Source: Gemmatimonadales bacterium
GTDB lineage: Bacteria > Gemmatimonadota > Gemmatimonadetes > Gemmatimonadales > GWC2-71-9
Length of the DNA stretch: 38,355 nt
NCBI GenBank assembly: GCA_013813435.1
Contig: JACCRS010000035.1
Coordinates: forward strand, 1-38,355
Direction of reading: 5' to 3'
Each line of letters begins with the position of its first letter. Positions within the stretch are counted from its first letter, which is position 1. Below are positions 14,551 to 25,096 of the stretch, one piece after another. The notes under the pieces were generated by a model. That model did not search any database, was not told the DNA's origin, and saw only the letters and a list, made by a program, of their open reading frames with translations. Both the position numbers and the translations under genes were made by a program.

Positions 14551-15664
14551 TATTTACCGTCAAGGCAATCCGGAAGAACCCTTCCCCCGCTGGTCCGAAT
14601 CCGCTTCCCGGGAGCACGACCACGCCCATTTCCTCGAGAGCGTGACGAGCGAACCCTGCGGAGGCCACTCCTTTCGGGAGTGGAATCCACAGATACATGG
14701 CGGCCTTGGGCGGCTCTACGGCAAATCCTACCTGGCGGAGCGCTCCTACCGCGGCATCGCGGCGGCGCTGCAGCTCGGAGCGAATCGGCTCGACCAGAGC
14801 TTCGCTTGCATCAAGCGTAGCTGCACCAGCCTTCTGCACTGCCAGGAACGGTCCGGTGTCAACGTAGGATTTTACCCGGGTGAGTGCACCGACCAGCTCC
14901 GGCCGACCCGCCGCAAAGCCCAGGCGCCAGCCCGTCATCGAATAGCTCTTTGACAACGAGAAGAACTCGATTGCCACATCGCGAGCTCCGGCAGTCTCGA
15001 AGATGCTGGGAGCGCGGTACCCATCAAAGGTCAGATCGCAATACGCATTGTCGTATGCGAGCAGAATGCCGTGCTCCCGGCAGATGGCCACCGTCCGCTC
15101 CAGATAGGCCGGGTTGGCTACGGCTGCGGTCGGATTGTTGGGATAGTTGATGAAGACAATTCTGGCGCGACGCAGCGTCTCCACCGGCACCTGGGCCAGC
15201 TGGAGCAGAAAGGAATTGTCCGGCTTGAGAGGGGCAATGTACGGCTCGGCGCCCGCCAACAAGGCTCCACCGATGTACGCCTGATAGCCAGGCTCAGGCA
15301 CGATGGCTACGTCGCCGGGATTAATTACCGTCAGGGGCAGGTGAGACAACCCTTCCTTGGAGCCTATCAGTGGTAAGGTCTCGGTAGCCGGATCGAAGTG
15401 GAGTCCGAATCGTCGCTCGATCCAGCGTGAGGCGGCTTGCCGGAACTCGGGCAGACCCTGCTGAAATCCGTACTTGCTCAGAGCAGGATTGCGCAGCGCG
15501 GCCCCCATAGCCTGCACCGCCAACTCGGGGGGCGGGGTGTCATTGTCGCCGGCGCCGAGATCTATGACGTCGACTCCGGCTTCAACCAGGCGCCGCTTGA
15601 TCGACGGAATCTCCGCCAGCGGGTAACCGGGCAGGCTCTCGACTCGCGTGCTGAGACGGATCAT
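14468..15664 (-). CDS. Class I/II PLP-dependent aminotransferase (DapL/aspartate type)
   Basis: This 398-residue enzyme starts at the ATG overlapping the FAH-family stop (ATGA at 15664-15661). Fold type I motifs are visible: IDLGAGDNDTPPP near the start, YGFQQGLPEFR, NYPNNPTAA for cofactor binding, YDNAYCDL, and the PLP lysine in SLSKSYSMTGWRLGF. The C-terminal arginine region is FFRIALT. The pattern is close to LL-diaminopimelate aminotransferases and related aspartate aminotransferases, so a role in lysine or aspartate-family metabolism is likely. Specificity cannot be fixed from sequence alone. Confidence 0.88.
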   Translation of the reverse strand: MIRLSTRVESLPGYPLAEIPSIKRRLVEAGVDVIDLGAGDNDTPPPELAVQAMGAALRNPALSKYGFQQGLPEFRQAASRWIERRFGLHFDPATETLPLIGSKEGLSHLPLTVINPGDVAIVPEPGYQAYIGGALLAGAEPYIAPLKPDNSFLLQLAQVPVETLRRARIVFINYPNNPTAAVANPAYLERTVAICREHGILLAYDNAYCDLTFDGYRAPSIFETAGARDVAIEFFSLSKSYSMTGWRLGFAAGRPELVGALTRVKSYVDTGPFLAVQKAGAATLDASEALVEPIRSELQRRRDAAVGALRQVGFAVEPPKAAMYLWIPLPKGVASAGFARHALEEMGVVVLPGSGFGPAGEGFFRIALTVNSDRLQLAAQRLGRALDRVGRGALATTV

Positions 15665-16287
15665 CGGCCCTCTGCGCCGGCAACAGGGTTGGAAAGGATG
15701 CCCACTCCGGGGATCTCCACCTCTACTACATCGCCTTGGTGCAGCGGAGCGGTTCCGGCCGGAGTACCGGTGGCGATGAGATCCCCCGGCTCCAACGTCA
15801 TGATGCCACTGAGAAAGGACACCAGCTCGGGAATCGAGAAATGCATGTCGGCCGACCGCGCCCGCTGGCGCTCGACGCCGTTTACCCGACAGATGAGGTC
15901 GAGGGAGCGCCAATCGAGGCTGCCGGCCACTCGCGGTCCGACCGGGCAAAAGGTGTCGAATCCTTTGGCCCTGCCCCACTGCCCGTCCTTCTTTTGGAGA
16001 TCTCGACAGGTGACATCGTTCACGCAGACATATCCGCCGATGGCGCGCTCGGCCCCAGCCACATCAGCATGACGGATCCGCTTGCCGATTACCACTCCGA
16101 TCTCGGCCTCGAACTCCACTCGGGTGGAGACGACTGGAAGCTGGATAGTGTCACCGGTGCCGATCAGTGCGGTAGGCGGCTTGAAAAAGATGATCGGGAC
16201 CTCAGGCATTTCGTTGCCCAGCTCCCGGGCGTGCTCCGCGTAATTCCGCCCGATACCGATGATCTTCGTGGGACGAACTGGTATCAT
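15661..16287 (-). CDS. Fumarylacetoacetate hydrolase family protein
   Basis: The 208-residue protein starts at the ATG inside the ATGA overlap with the helicase stop at 16287-16284. Family motifs: GIGRNYAEHA, FFKPPTALIG, VEFEAEIGVVIGKR with the metal-binding E-x-E, GYVCVNDVT, KGFDTFCPVGP and GDLIATGTPAG. Its short length matches the acylpyruvase / oxaloacetate decarboxylase group (FAHD1-like), which cleaves or decarboxylates beta-keto acids with Mg2+ in the cytoplasm. The natural substrate is not evident from the operon. Confidence 0.9.
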   Translation of the reverse strand: MIPVRPTKIIGIGRNYAEHARELGNEMPEVPIIFFKPPTALIGTGDTIQLPVVSTRVEFEAEIGVVIGKRIRHADVAGAERAIGGYVCVNDVTCRDLQKKDGQWGRAKGFDTFCPVGPRVAGSLDWRSLDLICRVNGVERQRARSADMHFSIPELVSFLSGIMTLEPGDLIATGTPAGTAPLHQGDVVEVEIPGVGILSNPVAGAEGR

Positions 16288-18785
16288 ACCGCGGCTCCGA
16301 TGCCCTGGCGGGCAAAGAAGTCTTCGCACTTGGTGCGGATCTGGGCCCAGCTGCCCAGCACGCGTTCCGCTCGGGGCAGCCCGTTTAGAAGTAAAGGGCC
16401 ATACCGCTTGGTGACGACTCGGCTGTCGAGCAAGATGACCACTCCGGTATCCTGACGGCTTCTGATGAGCCGGCCGAAGCCCTGTTTTAACTTGAGGGCG
16501 GCATGGGGAAGCAGATAGTTCATGAATCCGTCGAACCCCTCCTCGGCGAGACGCTCCAGGCGCGCCGCCGTGATCGGCTCGGAGGGGACTTTGAAAGGTA
16601 GCTTGTTCAAAACCAGGGCACGAAGCGCGCGGCCCGGCACATCGACCCCTTCCCAGAAGGAATCGGTGCCCAGAAGGATGGCATTCTCCAGCTCCCGGAA
16701 GCGTCGCAGCAGGACGTCACGGGGGGACTCACCCTGCACGAGAATAGGCCAGCGATCGCCGAGGCAGAGGCGTAGCTCGTGCGCTGCTCGCCGGAGCGCG
16801 GCGTGACTGGTGAACAGCACGAACATCCCGCCGTCGGAGGCGTATGCCAGATCGGTCACGACCTGCACCACCGCCGCACCGTGCGCCGGCTCATCCTCGC
16901 GGGGCTCCGGAAGATCGTTGGGAACTCCGAAGATGCATTGTGAGGGATAGTCGAAGGGTGACGCGAAGATCTCTCTGACTTTCACCGGTGAGGATTCACC
17001 GCTCAGCCCCAGCCGAGACTCCAGAAAGGCGAACTCACCCGCGGCCGCGAGCGTGGCGCTGGTGAGCACCACCGTACGAAGACGATCGAAGAGCAGCTCA
17101 CGGAGCACGGGAGCCAGATCGAGCGGTACCGCCGAGAGGCCGACGTGCTGGCCACGGGGGCTCCGCTCCATCCACCGCACCGTCGGAGCACCGCCAGAGG
17201 CGGGGCGGAGGGTGCGATTTAGGCCATCGGAGACTGCCTCCAGCCGGCGCAGGACGCCGCGAAGCTCCTGGAGAAGCTGCCCCCGGCGCTCCGTCTCCTC
17301 CGCTTGCGACAGCCGGTCGGCGATAGTCTCGACCGAGTCCCGCAACGACCGGAAGGCGCCCAGCGTCGAATCCAGGTCGAAGCCGAGTCCTTCTCCCCAG
17401 ATCGGATCGCCCGCAAAGCTGTCGTCCAGACGCTGTTGCCCACCACGCAAGTCTTCAAGCCGCTGATGCAGGCGGAGAAAGAGGGCCTCGCTCGAGCGGC
17501 GGGCATCGTTGATCGCAGGAAGCAGCCGCTGCTGTAACAGATCGAGGCTCGCGCGGCTCAGAAGATCGCTGCGGCCCTGAAGCTCGTAGGATAGCGTCGG
17601 TGCCAGACCCCGTCCGCCCCGCTCAAATCGCGCCAGCAGCCTCCGGACCGCTCGACTGGTCACTTGAATGCCGAGGTGATTGGCCGCGACGTCCTCCAGG
17701 TGGTGGGCCTCATCGAGGATCAAACGCTGGTAGGGCGGCAGCACCGCTGCTTCCTGCCAGTTGTCGGTCGTCTGCCGCACCGAGAGGTCGGCGGCGAGCA
17801 GGTGATGATTTACGACTACCACGTCGGCTTCCGCCGCGCGACGCCGCGCCCGAAACAGAAAGCAGCGGTCGAACTCCGAGCACTTGAGCCGGGTGCAGAG
17901 ATCGGGCTCGGCGCTCACCTCATCCCACACCTCGCTGCTCGGGGTAACCGGCAGATCGCTCAACGTCCCATCGGACGTGTGACCCGCCCACTCCGAAATC
18001 CCGATCAACTCGTCCAGCTTCTCCTGCTCGAGGAGGGTTCGTTGAGCCGATACCGCCTGGTGCATGCGGGCCAGGCAGAGATAGTTCCGCCAGCCCTTCA
18101 GCAAGGCAAAGGTGGGAGAGTAGCCGTCTGTGGTGAGCGCCTTCCGCAGCAGCGGGAGGTCCTTGCCCACCAACTGTTCCTGCAGGTTGATGGTGTTGGT
18201 GCTCACTACAGTTCGCTCGCCGTTTGCCCGGGCCCACGCCAGCGCGGGCACCAGGTATGCGAACGACTTCCCTACCCCGGTTCCAGCCTCCAGCAGCTGC
18301 ACGCCCCCGTCGTTGTAGCCGTCCGCGATATGGGCCGCCATGTCGCGCTGACTGCGGCGATCCTCGTAGCGGCGGAGCTGCTTCGCGATCGATCCGTGTT
18401 CTCCGAGGGTATCGACGATATCGAACGGATCTATCGGCGTGGTTGGCCGGTCGCGTGGAACTTCCACGACCATGTAGAGATCGGTTGCGTCGTTGCGCAG
18501 AATGCCAAAGCCCACTCCAGCATCGTGGAGGCCTGCGGCCACGTTAAGATCGGCTGCCGAAGGCTCCAGCACACCGCTGGGATGGTTGTGCAGAAGGACC
18601 TCGCCCCGACGTGCCCCTCCCGGCAGGGCCAGGACCATGTCGGCGGTGCCTCGCGCCACTACCCGGGCAGCAGTGATCACCCCGTCACGATCCATTCCCG
18701 CTACGAACGAAACCTCCCGACCACCAGCGCGTGTTATCTCGTTCGCGAGATAAGCCCGGACGCCCGGTGCTATCCGCTCGCTCAT
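16284..18785 (-). CDS. JAMM metalloprotease-DinG helicase fusion
   Basis: The 833-residue protein joins two domains. Residues 1-110 are a JAB/JAMM domain resembling RadC. Glu24 is followed by HNHPSG with His66 and His68, then Ser76 and Asp79, an exact H-x-H-x7-S-x2-D zinc site. From about residue 125 it is a DinG/XPD superfamily 2 helicase. It has Walker A AGTGVGKS (167-174), four cysteines for a 4Fe-4S cluster (237, 297, 302, 308), DEAH (358-361), VVLTSATL and the C-terminal LGTDSFWEGVDVPG and GFGRLIRS. DinG enzymes unwind DNA and R-loops; many carry an N-terminal exonuclease instead. Its ATG follows the Tat-protein stop by seven bases. Confidence 0.92.
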   Translation of the reverse strand: MSERIAPGVRAYLANEITRAGGREVSFVAGMDRDGVITAARVVARGTADMVLALPGGARRGEVLLHNHPSGVLEPSAADLNVAAGLHDAGVGFGILRNDATDLYMVVEVPRDRPTTPIDPFDIVDTLGEHGSIAKQLRRYEDRRSQRDMAAHIADGYNDGGVQLLEAGTGVGKSFAYLVPALAWARANGERTVVSTNTINLQEQLVGKDLPLLRKALTTDGYSPTFALLKGWRNYLCLARMHQAVSAQRTLLEQEKLDELIGISEWAGHTSDGTLSDLPVTPSSEVWDEVSAEPDLCTRLKCSEFDRCFLFRARRRAAEADVVVVNHHLLAADLSVRQTTDNWQEAAVLPPYQRLILDEAHHLEDVAANHLGIQVTSRAVRRLLARFERGGRGLAPTLSYELQGRSDLLSRASLDLLQQRLLPAINDARRSSEALFLRLHQRLEDLRGGQQRLDDSFAGDPIWGEGLGFDLDSTLGAFRSLRDSVETIADRLSQAEETERRGQLLQELRGVLRRLEAVSDGLNRTLRPASGGAPTVRWMERSPRGQHVGLSAVPLDLAPVLRELLFDRLRTVVLTSATLAAAGEFAFLESRLGLSGESSPVKVREIFASPFDYPSQCIFGVPNDLPEPREDEPAHGAAVVQVVTDLAYASDGGMFVLFTSHAALRRAAHELRLCLGDRWPILVQGESPRDVLLRRFRELENAILLGTDSFWEGVDVPGRALRALVLNKLPFKVPSEPITAARLERLAEEGFDGFMNYLLPHAALKLKQGFGRLIRSRQDTGVVILLDSRVVTKRYGPLLLNGLPRAERVLGSWAQIRTKCEDFFARQGIGAAV

Positions 18786-18792
18786 GGGGAAG

Positions 18793-20082
18793 TCACGTCT
18801 TCAGCTCCTTCTTCTTGGCTGCGGGGAACAACACGTTATTCAGAATCAGCCGGTACCCCGGCGAGTGCGGATGCAGTGAAAGATCGGTAGGTGCGTCGCC
18901 GATCTGGTGCTGCGGATCTTCCGGGTCGTGGCCCCCGAAGAAGGTCCAGGTGCCTTGCCCACGCTCTCCGTGGATGTACTTGACCCACGAGGCGCCGGGC
19001 TCTTCGGCCAGGACGGTTACACCCGGCTTCAGGGTCTTGCGGGTGAACGAGGTGGTGAGACCGTAGAAGTCGGGTATCACCTGGCGGTGGTTCTGCACCA
19101 GCATCGTTGCTACCGGATCGATCTTGGCGCTGAAGTTGAACAAAGTGTACGAGCCGAGTGGCTGACGCCGCTCAGGCGAGTTCACCTGATGACCGTCGAT
19201 GTCAGAATACACCGGGGTGGTGGGGCTTAGCTCCAACCGCGCATTGCGGAAGGCGAACGCTCGATCCCATTTCATCCGGGCAGTGGCATTGGGATCCATC
19301 GGATCGCCGTCGGCATACGAGGCTGCGATGTCATTGCCATCGGCGGCGAGCGTAAGATCTAGCGTCTCGGTGGCGGTGCACATTGCGAAAAGAAAGCCAC
19401 CTTTCTCGACGAAATCCGAAATGGCCACCGCAACCGCCCGCTTCAGTGCCGGTACGGAGGGAAGGCCCAGCGATCGCGCCATGGCTCTGTTGCGCTCCAC
19501 CATCTCGACCAGCCAAGCCGAGCCAGCGTAGTTAAGAAAGAACTTGGAGTATTGACCGGTGAAGTCCTCGTGGTGGAGATGGAGCCAGTCGTAGGTCTTC
19601 AGTTTTTGGCCCAGCACTTCGGCGTCCCAGACCTTCTCGAACTCGATGCCGGCATAATTCAGTGCCATGGTGACCGCATCATCCCACGGCGGGGCATTGG
19701 GTGGCGCATAGACCGCCACCTTGGGGGGCTTTTCCAAAGGCACCGCGTCCATGTTGCCATTCCGAAGCCCGCCCCGGATCTGCACCAGCTGACTGTCGTC
19801 TACCGGTTCCACCATGACCCCCGCCAAGGCGGCGTCGCGAGCTGTCCCAGCATCGCTCGGCAGCAGAAACGCCCCACTGCGGTAGTTCAGGAACCATTCG
19901 GCCTTCACACCCCGTTTGAGCGCCCGATACGCAACCCCGTATGCTTTCAGGTGGTCGGTCTGCGAATCATCCATCGGTATCAAGAGCCAGGCAGCCGTTG
20001 GCCAAGGTCCCAGCCAGGAGCGGGCGGGGTACAACGCCGCCAGACCGGCGCCGGCCCGGGAGACAAACTGGCGCCGTTTCAT
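18793..20082 (-). CDS. Tat-exported GATase-like protein (often labelled asparagine synthetase B)
   Basis: This 429-residue protein has a twin-arginine signal (KRRQFVSRAGAGLAAL). Relatives next to TPR genes are often named asparagine synthetase B, but I see neither the Cys2 amidotransferase start nor the SGGLDST PP-loop, so that name does not fit. Residues 120-240 read like a glutamine amidotransferase-1 or ThuA-type Rossmann fold. They include KVAVYAPPNAPPWDD, YDWLHLHHEDFTGQ and VEKGGFLFAMCTATE, with Cys235 at the nucleophile-elbow position. The C-terminal part has NFSAKIDPVATML and TWTFFGGHDPED. It is probably a periplasmic soluble protein. The ATG overlaps the TPR gene stop by four bases. 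Confidence 0.75.
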   Translation of the reverse strand: MKRRQFVSRAGAGLAALYPARSWLGPWPTAAWLLIPMDDSQTDHLKAYGVAYRALKRGVKAEWFLNYRSGAFLLPSDAGTARDAALAGVMVEPVDDSQLVQIRGGLRNGNMDAVPLEKPPKVAVYAPPNAPPWDDAVTMALNYAGIEFEKVWDAEVLGQKLKTYDWLHLHHEDFTGQYSKFFLNYAGSAWLVEMVERNRAMARSLGLPSVPALKRAVAVAISDFVEKGGFLFAMCTATETLDLTLAADGNDIAASYADGDPMDPNATARMKWDRAFAFRNARLELSPTTPVYSDIDGHQVNSPERRQPLGSYTLFNFSAKIDPVATMLVQNHRQVIPDFYGLTTSFTRKTLKPGVTVLAEEPGASWVKYIHGERGQGTWTFFGGHDPEDPQHQIGDAPTDLSLHPHSPGYRLILNNVLFPAAKKKELKT

Positions 20083-21812
20083 GTTCGCGGCACAGCTCCG
20101 CGTGCCTCATCGAGCTTACGCCGCGCCTGAGGTACGAGGGCGCTTTGAGGGTAATCAAGAATGAGATGCTCCAGCACCTGGACCGCCTCGGCCTCCCGTC
20201 GGGCCGAGATCAGCACATCGGCTAACGCGAGGTTCGCCGCCGGCGCGGTTACTGGGGCCTCCTTTACAGCGGCTGCCCGCAGCAGCCGTTCCGCATCGGC
20301 CGGCTTTCCCGACGCTGCCGAGAGTCGCCCGGCCAGCAGGTGCAACTCGGCCCCGCCCTGTCGAGCCGGTAGGTGAGCCGCCACCCGCTCGAGTTTTCCG
20401 ATGGCGTCAGCGGTGTCGCCCCGCTCCAACTGGAGCAGCGCACTGCCGAGCTCCGGCAGGCTGTCGCGCTCCAGAGGCTGCAGCAGAGCGAGGAACGCCG
20501 TACGGAGGGTCGCCTCCGACCGGTCGCCCGCGTAGGGACCCGCCGCCTTGAACAGATCGACTGCGCCTCGGACATCACCCCGGTACAATCGGATTCGCCC
20601 ACTCAGCGCCAGACCCTCCACGCTGCTGTCCGGGGCGATAGCCGAATCAGCTCGCACCAGATCACCCGACCTCATCCAGCCGAGGGCGAGGCCCCGGCGC
20701 AGGTGATCGTACTCGTCGGCCGAGAGTTTCGGTTGGAGCTGCCCCAGCCGCTCTGCCGCCTGATCCAGTTTCCCCTCGCTGATGAGCACGCTCACCAAAG
20801 TCGTGGCCGCGTCGGAGGCGACTGATGAGGGCGCGGCTTGGTCGTCGGTCAGACCAGCCAGCATCCGGCGGGCGCCCGCTCTGTCGCCCGACGCAGTGTA
20901 GGCCTGCGCCGCCTCCAGGCGAAGACGCGACGCTTGCGCTTCCGGCGAGCGTTCGGCGAGCGCCTCGAGCACTAGCCCCTGAGCCTGCTTGGCCTCCGAA
21001 CCACGCAGCATCTTGAGTTGGTCCAGCAGCGACCGGAGTACGGCGATGGCTTGAACCCGATCGGCGGGTAGTGCCGGGGCCAGGGTGCGAGCTGCACCCA
21101 GTGGATCACCCCAGTGGGCCCGTAGATCGGCCTCGATGCGCCGCGAGACCAGGTCGGTCTCACCACCAAGCAGGCGGAGAAGATGGTCGCGGGCAGGAGG
21201 GGGGGCCTGGCTGACGGTCGCCACGGCGGTGGCGCGATAGCCGGGCAGCCGGCGAACTGCCAGGAGCCATTCGCGGAGCGCGACGGTGTAGTCCCCTTCC
21301 GAGAGAGACAGCTGCGCCATCTCGGCGGCCATCGCGTCGGGCCGTCCCAGCCGTTCCCGGCCCCTGAGATACGCCGCCCTGGCCCCGGCCCTATTCTGCC
21401 TGCCGAGCTCGGCGGCACCCCACTCGCGGTAGGGGGCCTCTTCGGTGGGGGCGCTCCGCGCCCAACGCTCCGCCGTGGCGCGTACGCTGTCCGACTGATC
21501 AGTGGCGGCCCAGGCACGGAGCGCCACACCGTACACTGCCGAGCTCGAGGGCGCTGCCTCGAGCGCTGCCCGCACCGCCGGCAGGATGTCGGCGCCCTGG
21601 TTCAAGGGCAGCAGAGAGCGCTCCAAACCCAGAAGGGCGGAAACATCAGCAGGTCGGTTGGTCAGCACCGCTCGGTATGCCGCGGCGGCCCCGGCGTAGT
21701 CACCCCGCCGCTCGAGATCAAAAGCGCGAGTCATCCCGGGCTGCTGCGACCACACAGGGACGGGCAGCAGAAGTAGCACGCTCCATATGGCTGGGACAAG
21801 ACGCAGGCACAT
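20079..21812 (-). CDS. Secreted TPR-repeat protein
   Basis: The 577-residue protein starts at ATG 21812 with GAGG eight bases upstream; extending to 21905 would only re-read the DUF4175 gene. The signal peptide (LVPAIWSVLLLLPVPVWS) leads to a periplasmic helical solenoid. Several 34-residue TPR-like units are recognisable, for example GDYAGAAAAYRAVLTNRPADV near the N-terminus and AEAVQVLEHLILDYPQSALV at the C-terminus. The middle is Ala/Leu/Arg-rich and more degenerate. TPR proteins act as scaffolds. The tight coupling to DUF4175 and the Tat protein suggests a shared envelope complex. Confidence 0.82.
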   Translation of the reverse strand: MCLRLVPAIWSVLLLLPVPVWSQQPGMTRAFDLERRGDYAGAAAAYRAVLTNRPADVSALLGLERSLLPLNQGADILPAVRAALEAAPSSSAVYGVALRAWAATDQSDSVRATAERWARSAPTEEAPYREWGAAELGRQNRAGARAAYLRGRERLGRPDAMAAEMAQLSLSEGDYTVALREWLLAVRRLPGYRATAVATVSQAPPPARDHLLRLLGGETDLVSRRIEADLRAHWGDPLGAARTLAPALPADRVQAIAVLRSLLDQLKMLRGSEAKQAQGLVLEALAERSPEAQASRLRLEAAQAYTASGDRAGARRMLAGLTDDQAAPSSVASDAATTLVSVLISEGKLDQAAERLGQLQPKLSADEYDHLRRGLALGWMRSGDLVRADSAIAPDSSVEGLALSGRIRLYRGDVRGAVDLFKAAGPYAGDRSEATLRTAFLALLQPLERDSLPELGSALLQLERGDTADAIGKLERVAAHLPARQGGAELHLLAGRLSAASGKPADAERLLRAAAVKEAPVTAPAANLALADVLISARREAEAVQVLEHLILDYPQSALVPQARRKLDEARGAVPRT

Positions 21813-21817
21813 GAGGA

Positions 21818-24800
21818 TTACCTCGCGGAGGGCTGGGACAGGCGGCGAAAGTAATCTACCACCAGCCGCCGTTCCTCCGGAGAGAGCTGCTGGAGCTCCT
21901 CCCACGTGGGCACCCTCAGTCTGCGATGTTCGTCTTCCAACCTTGCTCTTAGTGCTGGCGGAAGACGGATGCTGTCGCCGCTGGCGGTACTGCTCTGCCG
22001 TTCCTTCTTCTCGTCCTCCTCCCGTCCCTGGAGTGTGCGCCCGGCGTCGAGCATTCGGCGGAAGAGCCGCTGCTGCCGCTCCACTGTCTGGCGCTCCAGC
22101 CGTCCAGCCTCCAGTCTGCGAGAGAGCTGCGCCGCCTCGTCGGCCATTTCACCGGCGCCGGGGATACTGCCCTCTCCCCGCATCTTTTCCAGCTCCTGCG
22201 CCATGGCCCGCTGCTTAGCCGCCAGCCTTTGCAGCTGCTCCCTGATGGCACCGCTGCCCGCCATCGGCAGCATTCCAGCTCCCTGCTGTCCGAGACCGCC
22301 CTGTTGTTGGGCCAGCTGAGCCAGCCGCTCCAGCGTTTCCGCCAGACCCGACCCGGACTGAGAGCCGGACACATCTCCCCGGGCTCGAAGCAACTGGTGT
22401 GCTGCCGCGTTCAGCCCGTCGACTGCCTCGCCGGCCTGCTCCGCCGCTTCCCGGCTGTTGGGGGAGGCCGAGGAGATCGCCTCGCGAGTCTGCTGCATTC
22501 GCATCTGGGCGGCTCCGAGAGCCGCGCCGATTTGAGGAGGAACCAGAGCATTTTTACCGCCTGCTTGCCTCACTTGATCCAGAACCTTCTGAACGCCTTC
22601 CTCAATCGCTGCCTGCTCGCCGCGGGTCGATGCATCGGGAGGTCCACCCTCGCGCAGCTGCTCCTGCACCTGAAGCTGGCGTTGGGCCAGGCGGCTGGTT
22701 TCGCTCAAGGCCTGGTCAATGGCTTGAACCACCTCTTTACGCCATTCCTGCTGCATCTCCTGACGCCGGCTTTGCAGTTGATCACCCAAAGGGGCGAGTG
22801 AGCGTGAGGCCTCTTCTCCCTGCTGCCTTGCCTTGGGGCGCTGGCCCTGTTGAGCCGACCGGGCCGCCTGCTGCATCTGCTGGGCGGCCTTGCCGGCCTG
22901 CTGCGCCAAATCCTTCAACCCGGACTGACTTCCCTCCGAGGCAGCGTCCCTGGATATCTTGTCCAGCGCCCTTGCCATGGAATCGGTTCTAGCGGCAAGC
23001 TGGCGTTCCGCCAGTGCCGAGCGAGCGCTATCAGCAGCGGCAACCTGCTGGTTCCACTCCCGTTGCTCGCGCGCCAGCTCCTTTGATTCCTGACTCAAGT
23101 TGGCGAGATCACCTTCCAGCGCGGCACGCCGGAAGAGCTCACGGCTGCGCTCCAGTGCTTCTCGGAGCTGTTTCTGCGCTTCCGCCAACTGCTCCAGTGC
23201 GAGCTTGGTGCGTTCGGCGTCCAGATCTTTCAGGGCCTGCTGCAGGCCGGCAAGCTTTTCCCGAAGCTCGGGTGAGAGCGCGCGCTCAAGCTGAGCTCGG
23301 ATTTCGGAGAGCTGCCGCTGCCAGGCTGTGTCGCTCATTCCGGCGGCATCGGCGCTGCGGCGGAGTGCATCCAGCGACTTTTCCAGCGATTCGGCTTGCC
23401 GGATCAGCTCTTCCTGCGACTTGGCCGCTCCCTCTGCCCGCTGAGCCTCCTCATACGAAAGCGACTCCTCGTCCTTGGTGCCCAGCCCGCCGGCCGGGCG
23501 GGACCGCTCCCGCGCCAGGTCATCCGTCTGCCGCTCAACCCGCTTGCTGGCCTCGGTAATGGAGTCGAGTCGGCCGGCGATCGCTTCAGTAGCTTCGCGT
23601 TGCGCTGCTCTTACCTCGCTCATCGTTGGCAGACGCAGGACGAACTCACGCGAGCGGCCCGACTGACCTCGGGGTGTGTTGTCTCTGACGGTTGCGAAGT
23701 ACCGCACCGTATCGCCCGGCAGGAGACCGCGCCGGTTCAGGTCAAGAGTGTAAGTGAGAATCGCACGATCAGGACGCTCTACCGGCACCGATACGATGTC
23801 GCGCCGCGAAGAATCGACCAGGCCGAACCGACTGATTCGGCGGCTCTCCACGGTGATGGCCGTGATGCTGTGGTCGTCCCGGGCGTCGATGACCAGCGGC
23901 ATCAAGAGGCTCACGGGAGCGAGCGTGTCCGCACCAGGTACCGGGATCTCCACCAGGGGAGCGCTGTCGGGCACCAGCCGGATGGACAGCCGGACTGAAT
24001 CTCCCGCGAGAGGCGCTCCAGTGGCAGTGAGCAGTTGCAGGCCGTAGTCGCCAGAGCGGCGCGGTGCGAAGGTGCCGCTGAAACGGGTCTCCGCTACCTC
24101 CAGCGTCTCCGCCTCGTCCCTGGTTTTCCAGGCTGCAGCTGCAAGGCGTGCAGTGGCCTCCCCCCGCGTCTCGAGCCGCGTGCCGACCGGCAGGATGAGA
24201 GTATCACCACTGGTAGGCACCGGCTCACTATCGAGGCCCAGATACGCGGGATACCGCGCAATCACGCTCAGCGAGCCGAGAAAGGCCGGCAGCCGCACTC
24301 GCACCATGACAGTGTCGGAAGAGCGCCCCCCGCTGGTTAGACGGACGAACAGGTCACTCTGAAGAGGCGGAGTCGAAATCCGGGCGCGGCCAACAGAGTC
24401 GAGGCGAACTCCTTGGGCCTTCCAGGCCTCGCCCGGTGAGCGCAACCATAACATTGCCGCCGTGCGACCCAAGGCCTCGAGGTGCAACTCCACCGGTTGC
24501 CCGCGGTCTACCAGGTGCTGGCCGGCGCGGATCCGCACCGGTGCCATCGTGGCTTCCCACGCCCGCTTCGGATGCCACAGCGCCGCCGCAGGCCCCTGCG
24601 CCGGCCCTGCCGAGGTAAACGCCACGGCGCCCGCTGCCAGACATAGCAGCCCCGCGACTGAAATCCTTCGCACTGGCCGGGCGATCGGTTCCACTGCGGT
24701 GCCGCCTCGCCGTGCCACGTCCTCCGCCTGAGACCTGTCGGCCAGCTCAAGCAGTTCGCCGCTGGTGCCGGACGCAGCCGTATCCAGAAGTGAGGTGAGA

Positions 24801-25096
24801 GTGCCCCGTCGCCATGCGCCAAGCTCTTCCAGGCCCCGCGCCAAGCTGATGGTTGAGAGCCGACTCTGCGCCAGCCAGGCCAGGTACGCCACGCAAAAGA
24901 AGCTCAACAGAGCCATCACCCAGGCAAGCAGCACCCAGTAGGGCGCGCTGAACCAACCGAGCCGGACGGTCCAGGACCAGGCACCGAGCAACACGGCCAC
25001 CGTCCCGACCCCCAAGGTTGCCCAGCCCATGCCGCTGCGGGCTCTGAGAGGTCGGGCGAGCCGTTGCAGTTCGCTGTGGGTGGCGGGTGCCGTCAC
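21818..25096 (-). CDS. DUF4175-like large membrane protein
   Basis: This 1092-residue protein starts at a GTG overlapping the DUF4159 stop (GTGA). Two membrane spans (about residues 24-44 and 52-75) and a third hydrophobic segment (147-164) lead into beta-rich immunoglobulin-like periplasmic domains (about 180-490). A long Gln/Glu/Arg-rich coiled coil (about 500-800) follows, then a Gln/Gly-rich tail with GGLGQQGAG. The order matches DUF4175 proteins, which have no known function and often lie with DUF4159, MoxR and DUF58 genes. I find no catalytic motif, so a structural or force-bearing envelope role is plausible but inferred. Confidence 0.8.
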   Translation of the reverse strand: MTAPATHSELQRLARPLRARSGMGWATLGVGTVAVLLGAWSWTVRLGWFSAPYWVLLAWVMALLSFFCVAYLAWLAQSRLSTISLARGLEELGAWRRGTLTSLLDTAASGTSGELLELADRSQAEDVARRGGTAVEPIARPVRRISVAGLLCLAAGAVAFTSAGPAQGPAAALWHPKRAWEATMAPVRIRAGQHLVDRGQPVELHLEALGRTAAMLWLRSPGEAWKAQGVRLDSVGRARISTPPLQSDLFVRLTSGGRSSDTVMVRVRLPAFLGSLSVIARYPAYLGLDSEPVPTSGDTLILPVGTRLETRGEATARLAAAAWKTRDEAETLEVAETRFSGTFAPRRSGDYGLQLLTATGAPLAGDSVRLSIRLVPDSAPLVEIPVPGADTLAPVSLLMPLVIDARDDHSITAITVESRRISRFGLVDSSRRDIVSVPVERPDRAILTYTLDLNRRGLLPGDTVRYFATVRDNTPRGQSGRSREFVLRLPTMSEVRAAQREATEAIAGRLDSITEASKRVERQTDDLARERSRPAGGLGTKDEESLSYEEAQRAEGAAKSQEELIRQAESLEKSLDALRRSADAAGMSDTAWQRQLSEIRAQLERALSPELREKLAGLQQALKDLDAERTKLALEQLAEAQKQLREALERSRELFRRAALEGDLANLSQESKELAREQREWNQQVAAADSARSALAERQLAARTDSMARALDKISRDAASEGSQSGLKDLAQQAGKAAQQMQQAARSAQQGQRPKARQQGEEASRSLAPLGDQLQSRRQEMQQEWRKEVVQAIDQALSETSRLAQRQLQVQEQLREGGPPDASTRGEQAAIEEGVQKVLDQVRQAGGKNALVPPQIGAALGAAQMRMQQTREAISSASPNSREAAEQAGEAVDGLNAAAHQLLRARGDVSGSQSGSGLAETLERLAQLAQQQGGLGQQGAGMLPMAGSGAIREQLQRLAAKQRAMAQELEKMRGEGSIPGAGEMADEAAQLSRRLEAGRLERQTVERQQRLFRRMLDAGRTLQGREEDEKKERQSSTASGDSIRLPPALRARLEDEHRRLRVPTWEELQQLSPEERRLVVDYFRRLSQPSAR

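Follow-up and report, generated by a model that had tools for sequence, protein, structure and literature searches.

A Gemmatimonadota form of RadC-like DinG, with a RadC-type JAMM domain at the N-terminus of an iron-sulphur helicase

A recent review divides DinG-like proteins into ten subgroups, one of which, 'RadC-like DinG', carries a centre of one glutamate, two histidines and one aspartate that is likened to that of JAMM proteases (Cheng 2025, PMC11981726). According to this review, RadC-like DinG is found in organisms without HolC, is represented by a model protein from Desulfuromonas soudanensis, resembles YoaA in closing motor domain 2 with a C-terminal helix, and had not yet been the subject of any research. 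RadC fused to DinG/RAD3 helicases is also mentioned in PMC5512222, and both this work and PMC3482391 (2012) argue that RadC-type JAMMs are nucleases rather than ubiquitin-tail peptidases, noting that the groove for a ubiquitin-like (Ubl) tail is missing. Our literature search found no further use of the name 'RadC-like DinG' beyond the review, and no paper demonstrating an activity for RadC itself, with the RadC-only search swamped by the radiology term rADC.

Here, we describe a complete gene for an 833-amino acid protein, running from ATG to stop on the minus strand of a Gemmatimonadales contig; the window is the whole stretch of DNA analysed, 38,355 nucleotides long. We identify the protein as the form that RadC-like DinG, a class already described, takes in Gemmatimonadota. 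The initial annotation of this DNA had implied that the fusion was new, which the review and the earlier mention of RadC-DinG/RAD3 fusions contradict; its reservation that the architecture might prove already common and characterised holds for common and described, and does not extend to experimental characterisation. The gene and its parts are as follows, all on the minus strand.

16284..18785, minus strand: RadC-like DinG, an N-terminal RadC-type JAMM domain and a YoaA/DinG-type Fe-S SF2 helicase, 833 aa (ORF, Pfam, NCBIfam, AlphaFold2, Foldseek)
18456..18785, minus strand: RadC-type JAMM domain, residues 1-110 (Pfam PF04002; profile and Foldseek matches to RadC 2QLC)
18501-18758, minus strand: Pfam RadC match (PF04002), residues 10-95
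18714..18716, minus strand: JAMM Glu24, kept in 69/71 homologues
18582..18590, minus strand: JAMM His66-Asn67-His68 within HNHPSG, a RadC-type signature (H66 in 69/71, H68 in 70/71)
18549..18560, minus strand: JAMM Ser76 to Asp79 (S76 in 71/71, D79 in 69/71)
18264..18290, minus strand: Walker A, EAGTGVGKS, residues 166-174 (translation, alignment)
17862..18077, minus strand: Fe-S segment with C237, C297, C302 and C308; the last three are invariant, and one sister clade has Ser in place of C237
17703..17714, minus strand: Walker B box DEAH, residues 358-361 (translation, alignment)
16374..16850, minus strand: Helicase_C_2, residues 646-804, including SFWEGVD and QGFGRLIR (Pfam E 6e-42)

Both halves of the protein are recognised by family models and lie in one reading frame, as first noted from the sequence. 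The RadC model PF04002 matches residues 10-95 (E 5e-7; 30.1 bits, cut-off 22.1), and DEAD, DEAD_2 and Helicase_C_2 all exceed their Pfam cut-offs in the remainder. Translation and alignment bear out the Walker A motif, four cluster cysteines, DEAH box and C-terminal motifs (SFWEGVD and QGFGRLIR) that had been read from the DNA. Among NCBIfam helicase models, YoaA (NF053712) scores best and ahead of the DinG models, at 577.2 bits over residues 126-809, below its curated cut-off of 680; DinG NF008729 reaches 420.8 bits against a curated cut-off of 598, and the stand-alone RadC model NF000642 reaches 24.8 bits against 180.

The N-terminal domain presents Glu24, His66, His68, Ser76 and Asp79 with the spacing H-x-H-x7-S-x2-D, and these putative zinc-site residues sit on a predicted JAMM fold. 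AlphaFold2 models of the full-length protein, from an alignment of 54 homologues (pLDDT 88.2, pTM 0.82), and of the first 118 residues alone (pLDDT 87.5, pTM 0.81) are confident; the full-length model includes a helix at 813-826. When these models were compared with known structures by Foldseek, E. coli DinG (6FWR) ranked first for the full-length protein and RadC 2QLC (E 8.6e-6) for the N-terminal domain, followed by weaker matches to CSN5, Rpn11-type proteins and AfJAMM. A sequence profile of the JAMM domain also picks RadC 2QLC (E 1e-7), so that Pfam, profile searches and structure prediction agree on what the initial annotation had called a JAMM and a DinG-type domain, the N-terminal part being predicted to fold as JAMM. 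Because the same profile matches the stand-alone RadC of the protein's own genome (E 8.5e-9) far better than that genome's Ubl-type Prok-JAB (E 0.022), we assign the domain, by sequence, to the RadC type and not to the Prok-JAB type that acts on Ubl tails. A chance motif is ruled out by its conservation in 69 of 71 homologues, by the RadC match found in 52 of the 54 alignment members, and by the confident prediction of a RadC-like fold.

Of the 71 aligned homologues, 69 retain the complete set of five JAMM residues, and each residue singly is kept in 69 to 71. The two exceptions belong to one genus (g71, genomes G135 and G144, each of 2 Mb), in which the glutamate, first histidine and aspartate have been lost together, so that the domain stays without its metal site; no RadC match is present anywhere in these two genomes. 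Over 13 close pairs, dN/dS in the JAMM domain lies between 0.055 and 0.156, near the helicase value, with the proviso that these are simple Nei-Gojobori estimates in which some dS values approach saturation. The site is under strong purifying selection, and the early impression that it looks catalytically intact is upheld at the level of sequence and predicted fold.

On the helicase-part tree, the JAMM domain disappeared as a whole on at least four occasions and was inactivated on one, and the helicase motifs that we checked persist in the JAMM-less and inactivated proteins. In eight Gemmatimonadota genomes lacking the domain we found no displaced copy: each has a single RadC match, a stand-alone RadC, and split genes or a missed domain are thereby ruled out as the source of the JAMM-less proteins. 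Repeated loss shows that the helicase can do without the JAMM domain. Because the site is intact in nearly all homologues and dN/dS is low, yet the domain has been lost repeatedly with the helicase motifs retained, we regard it as a module that is dispensable to the core helicase and yet selected for catalysis.

Two further variations were seen among relatives. In three proteins (L038, L039 and L040), the JAMM domain is absent along with the upstream block of DUF4175, TPR and 429-aa genes described below, and the place close upstream is taken by a 16S rRNA methyltransferase gene, an arrangement that a single deletion extending into the helicase gene could have produced. In 16 relatives forming one clade (families f4, f5 and f6), serine replaces the first cluster cysteine (C237 in the present protein), giving SCCC in place of CCCC; no other cysteine lies near the substituted position, and the remaining three are invariant. 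Single substitutions of cluster cysteines are already known in DinG-like proteins, and here a whole clade carries one.

Of 121 Gemmatimonadota genomes sampled, 101 have the gene, usually with no other DinG-type match; within the set of closest relatives, it is present in 41 of 43 near-complete genomes. Riflebacteria also carry a RadC-DinG fusion, and a tree of the helicase part, a quick search with some long branches, places the fused proteins of Gemmatimonadota and Riflebacteria in one group (SH-aLRT 96) separate from the YoaA and DinG of E. coli and from other DinGs. HolC was found in none of 41 genomes, this one included, with E. coli and Caulobacter as positive controls, ruling out a YoaA-HolC partnership. 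Nor does the fusion appear to have come from a mobile element, since searches of phage, plasmid and viral collections did not find it: the phage matches among those listed cover the helicase part only, the one plasmid match turned out to be a normal RadC, and no DinG match accompanies RadC at any of 52 viral loci.

Within the window, the gene sits in an apparent operon, with these neighbours:

18793..20082, minus strand: upstream operon partner of 429 aa, unmatched in Pfam, NCBIfam and PDB, separated from the DinG start by 7 nt
20079..21905, minus strand: upstream TPR protein, conserved neighbour (neighbourhood comparison)
21818..25096, minus strand: upstream DUF4175 protein, conserved neighbour (neighbourhood comparison)
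15661..16287, minus strand: downstream FAA-hydrolase-family gene, whose likely ATG forms a 4-nt overlap (ATGA) with the DinG stop

Across the class, the genes largely follow the order DUF4175, TPR, 429-aa protein, DinG, FAA hydrolase, aminotransferase, and no Ubl, E1 or peptidase gene occurs in the conserved operon or neighbourhood. The 429-aa protein has a Tat-like N-terminus and 59-82% identity across the class, and in distant relatives it is more conserved than the helicase. The genome's separate Prok-JAB is located elsewhere (contig C54), beside a CysM-like gene and a ThiS-MoeB(E1)-rhodanese fusion, which leads us to reject a Ubl-linked reading of the JAMM in the fusion. The apparent Prok-JAB operon also includes an Rrf2-like regulator, and from these gene names, read in part from the sequence, it likely encodes a sulphur-carrier pathway for cysteine.

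We propose, with a confidence that stops just short of even, that the protein is an ATP-driven YoaA/DinG-type Fe-S helicase that carries an N-terminal RadC-clade JAMM zinc hydrolase and acts on a target exposed by its motor. The motor would load on single-stranded DNA and, judging from its family, move with 5'-3' polarity, and the JAMM domain would hydrolyse something that the motor exposes, from the N-terminal position that the nuclease domain occupies in ExoDinG and EndoDinG. As to the target, the full E/H/H/S/D set is a peptidase set, which counts against a preference for nucleic acid, and to our knowledge every biochemically characterised JAMM enzyme cuts peptide or isopeptide bonds. We nevertheless weakly favour a nucleic-acid bond or DNA end structure, at close to one chance in two, because of the shared N-terminal position and the published argument about RadC. 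A DNA-bound protein or peptide adduct is the less likely target, and it keeps a minority share of the probability because of that full residue set and of the reactions that JAMM enzymes are known to catalyse. The initial annotation had pointed to this second target, suggesting that a protease or isopeptidase could clear DNA-bound proteins or peptide adducts during unwinding. The structural neighbours that follow RadC, which are deubiquitinase-type JAMMs, would suit such an enzyme, but we consider it the less likely of the two: the domain is RadC-type and bears only a weak relationship to the Ubl-type JAMM of this genome, it has no Ubl, E1 or peptidase neighbour, and RadC-clade JAMMs have been argued to be without the Ubl-tail groove (PMC5512222, PMC3482391). 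With the published leaning towards nucleic acid, these points leave the protease idea without specific support.

What probability remains is shared by a non-enzymatic role, hydrolysis of a nucleotide or metabolite, and other targets. That the domain can vanish without loss of the helicase, and that genus g71 retains it without a metal site, would both be expected of a folding or protein-binding module that is not an enzyme; we hold this to be improbable, given that the site is otherwise intact, that glutamate, histidine and aspartate disappear together, and that dN/dS is about as low as in the helicase. A hydrolase acting on metabolites or nucleotides, linked to the neighbouring operon and not to DNA repair, could account for the conserved company of DUF4175, TPR, 429-aa, FAA hydrolase and aminotransferase genes, but the Riflebacteria fusion occurs without these neighbours and the fusion to a helicase argues for DNA, and we judge it very improbable.

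RadC occurs widely, under a name that has been described as misleading. The proteins described here join a RadC-type domain to a helicase whose class is known; strong selection keeps the metal site of the domain, and the domain has been naturally removed several times. The fusion therefore places the question of what RadC-type JAMMs cut in a specific DNA context, and it supplies negative controls of natural origin. The RadC-type JAMM of this helicase may be a new kind of zinc hydrolase that works in cis on DNA or on DNA-attached proteins, coupled to translocation by the Fe-S helicase. We advance this claim tentatively, as one that we would sooner doubt than assert; if true, this would be the first enzyme of the RadC clade for which a substrate could be defined.

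Compared with the known systems, the 833-aa protein agrees with RadC-like DinG (PMC11981726) in its RadC-like JAMM domain, which is N-terminal and has E, two H and D at its centre, its YoaA-like helicase, the absence of HolC, and a helicase core with Walker A, DEAH and C-terminal motifs; we found no defining difference, although Gemmatimonadota are unnamed in the main text of the review and some class-level relatives of the present protein have Ser at the first cluster Cys. E. coli YoaA supplies the best helicase model, but the present protein falls below its cut-off, bears the extra N-terminal JAMM domain, and belongs to a lineage without the HolC partner. ExoDinG and EndoDinG (for example S. 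aureus DinG, 8ZEF) likewise combine a DinG helicase with an N-terminal hydrolase domain, which here is a JAMM rather than an exonuclease or endonuclease fold. Stand-alone RadC (NF000642) shares the HNHPSG...PS..D signature, and its relative 2QLC is the top structural match, whereas the present protein is without the canonical N-terminal part of RadC and lacks the VHPREVF segment, seen as an 8-residue gap. To the described class we add that in Gemmatimonadota it is usually the sole DinG-type gene, that it lies there in a conserved operon, that it also occurs in Riflebacteria, and that the strength of selection on its metal site can be set beside natural loss variants.
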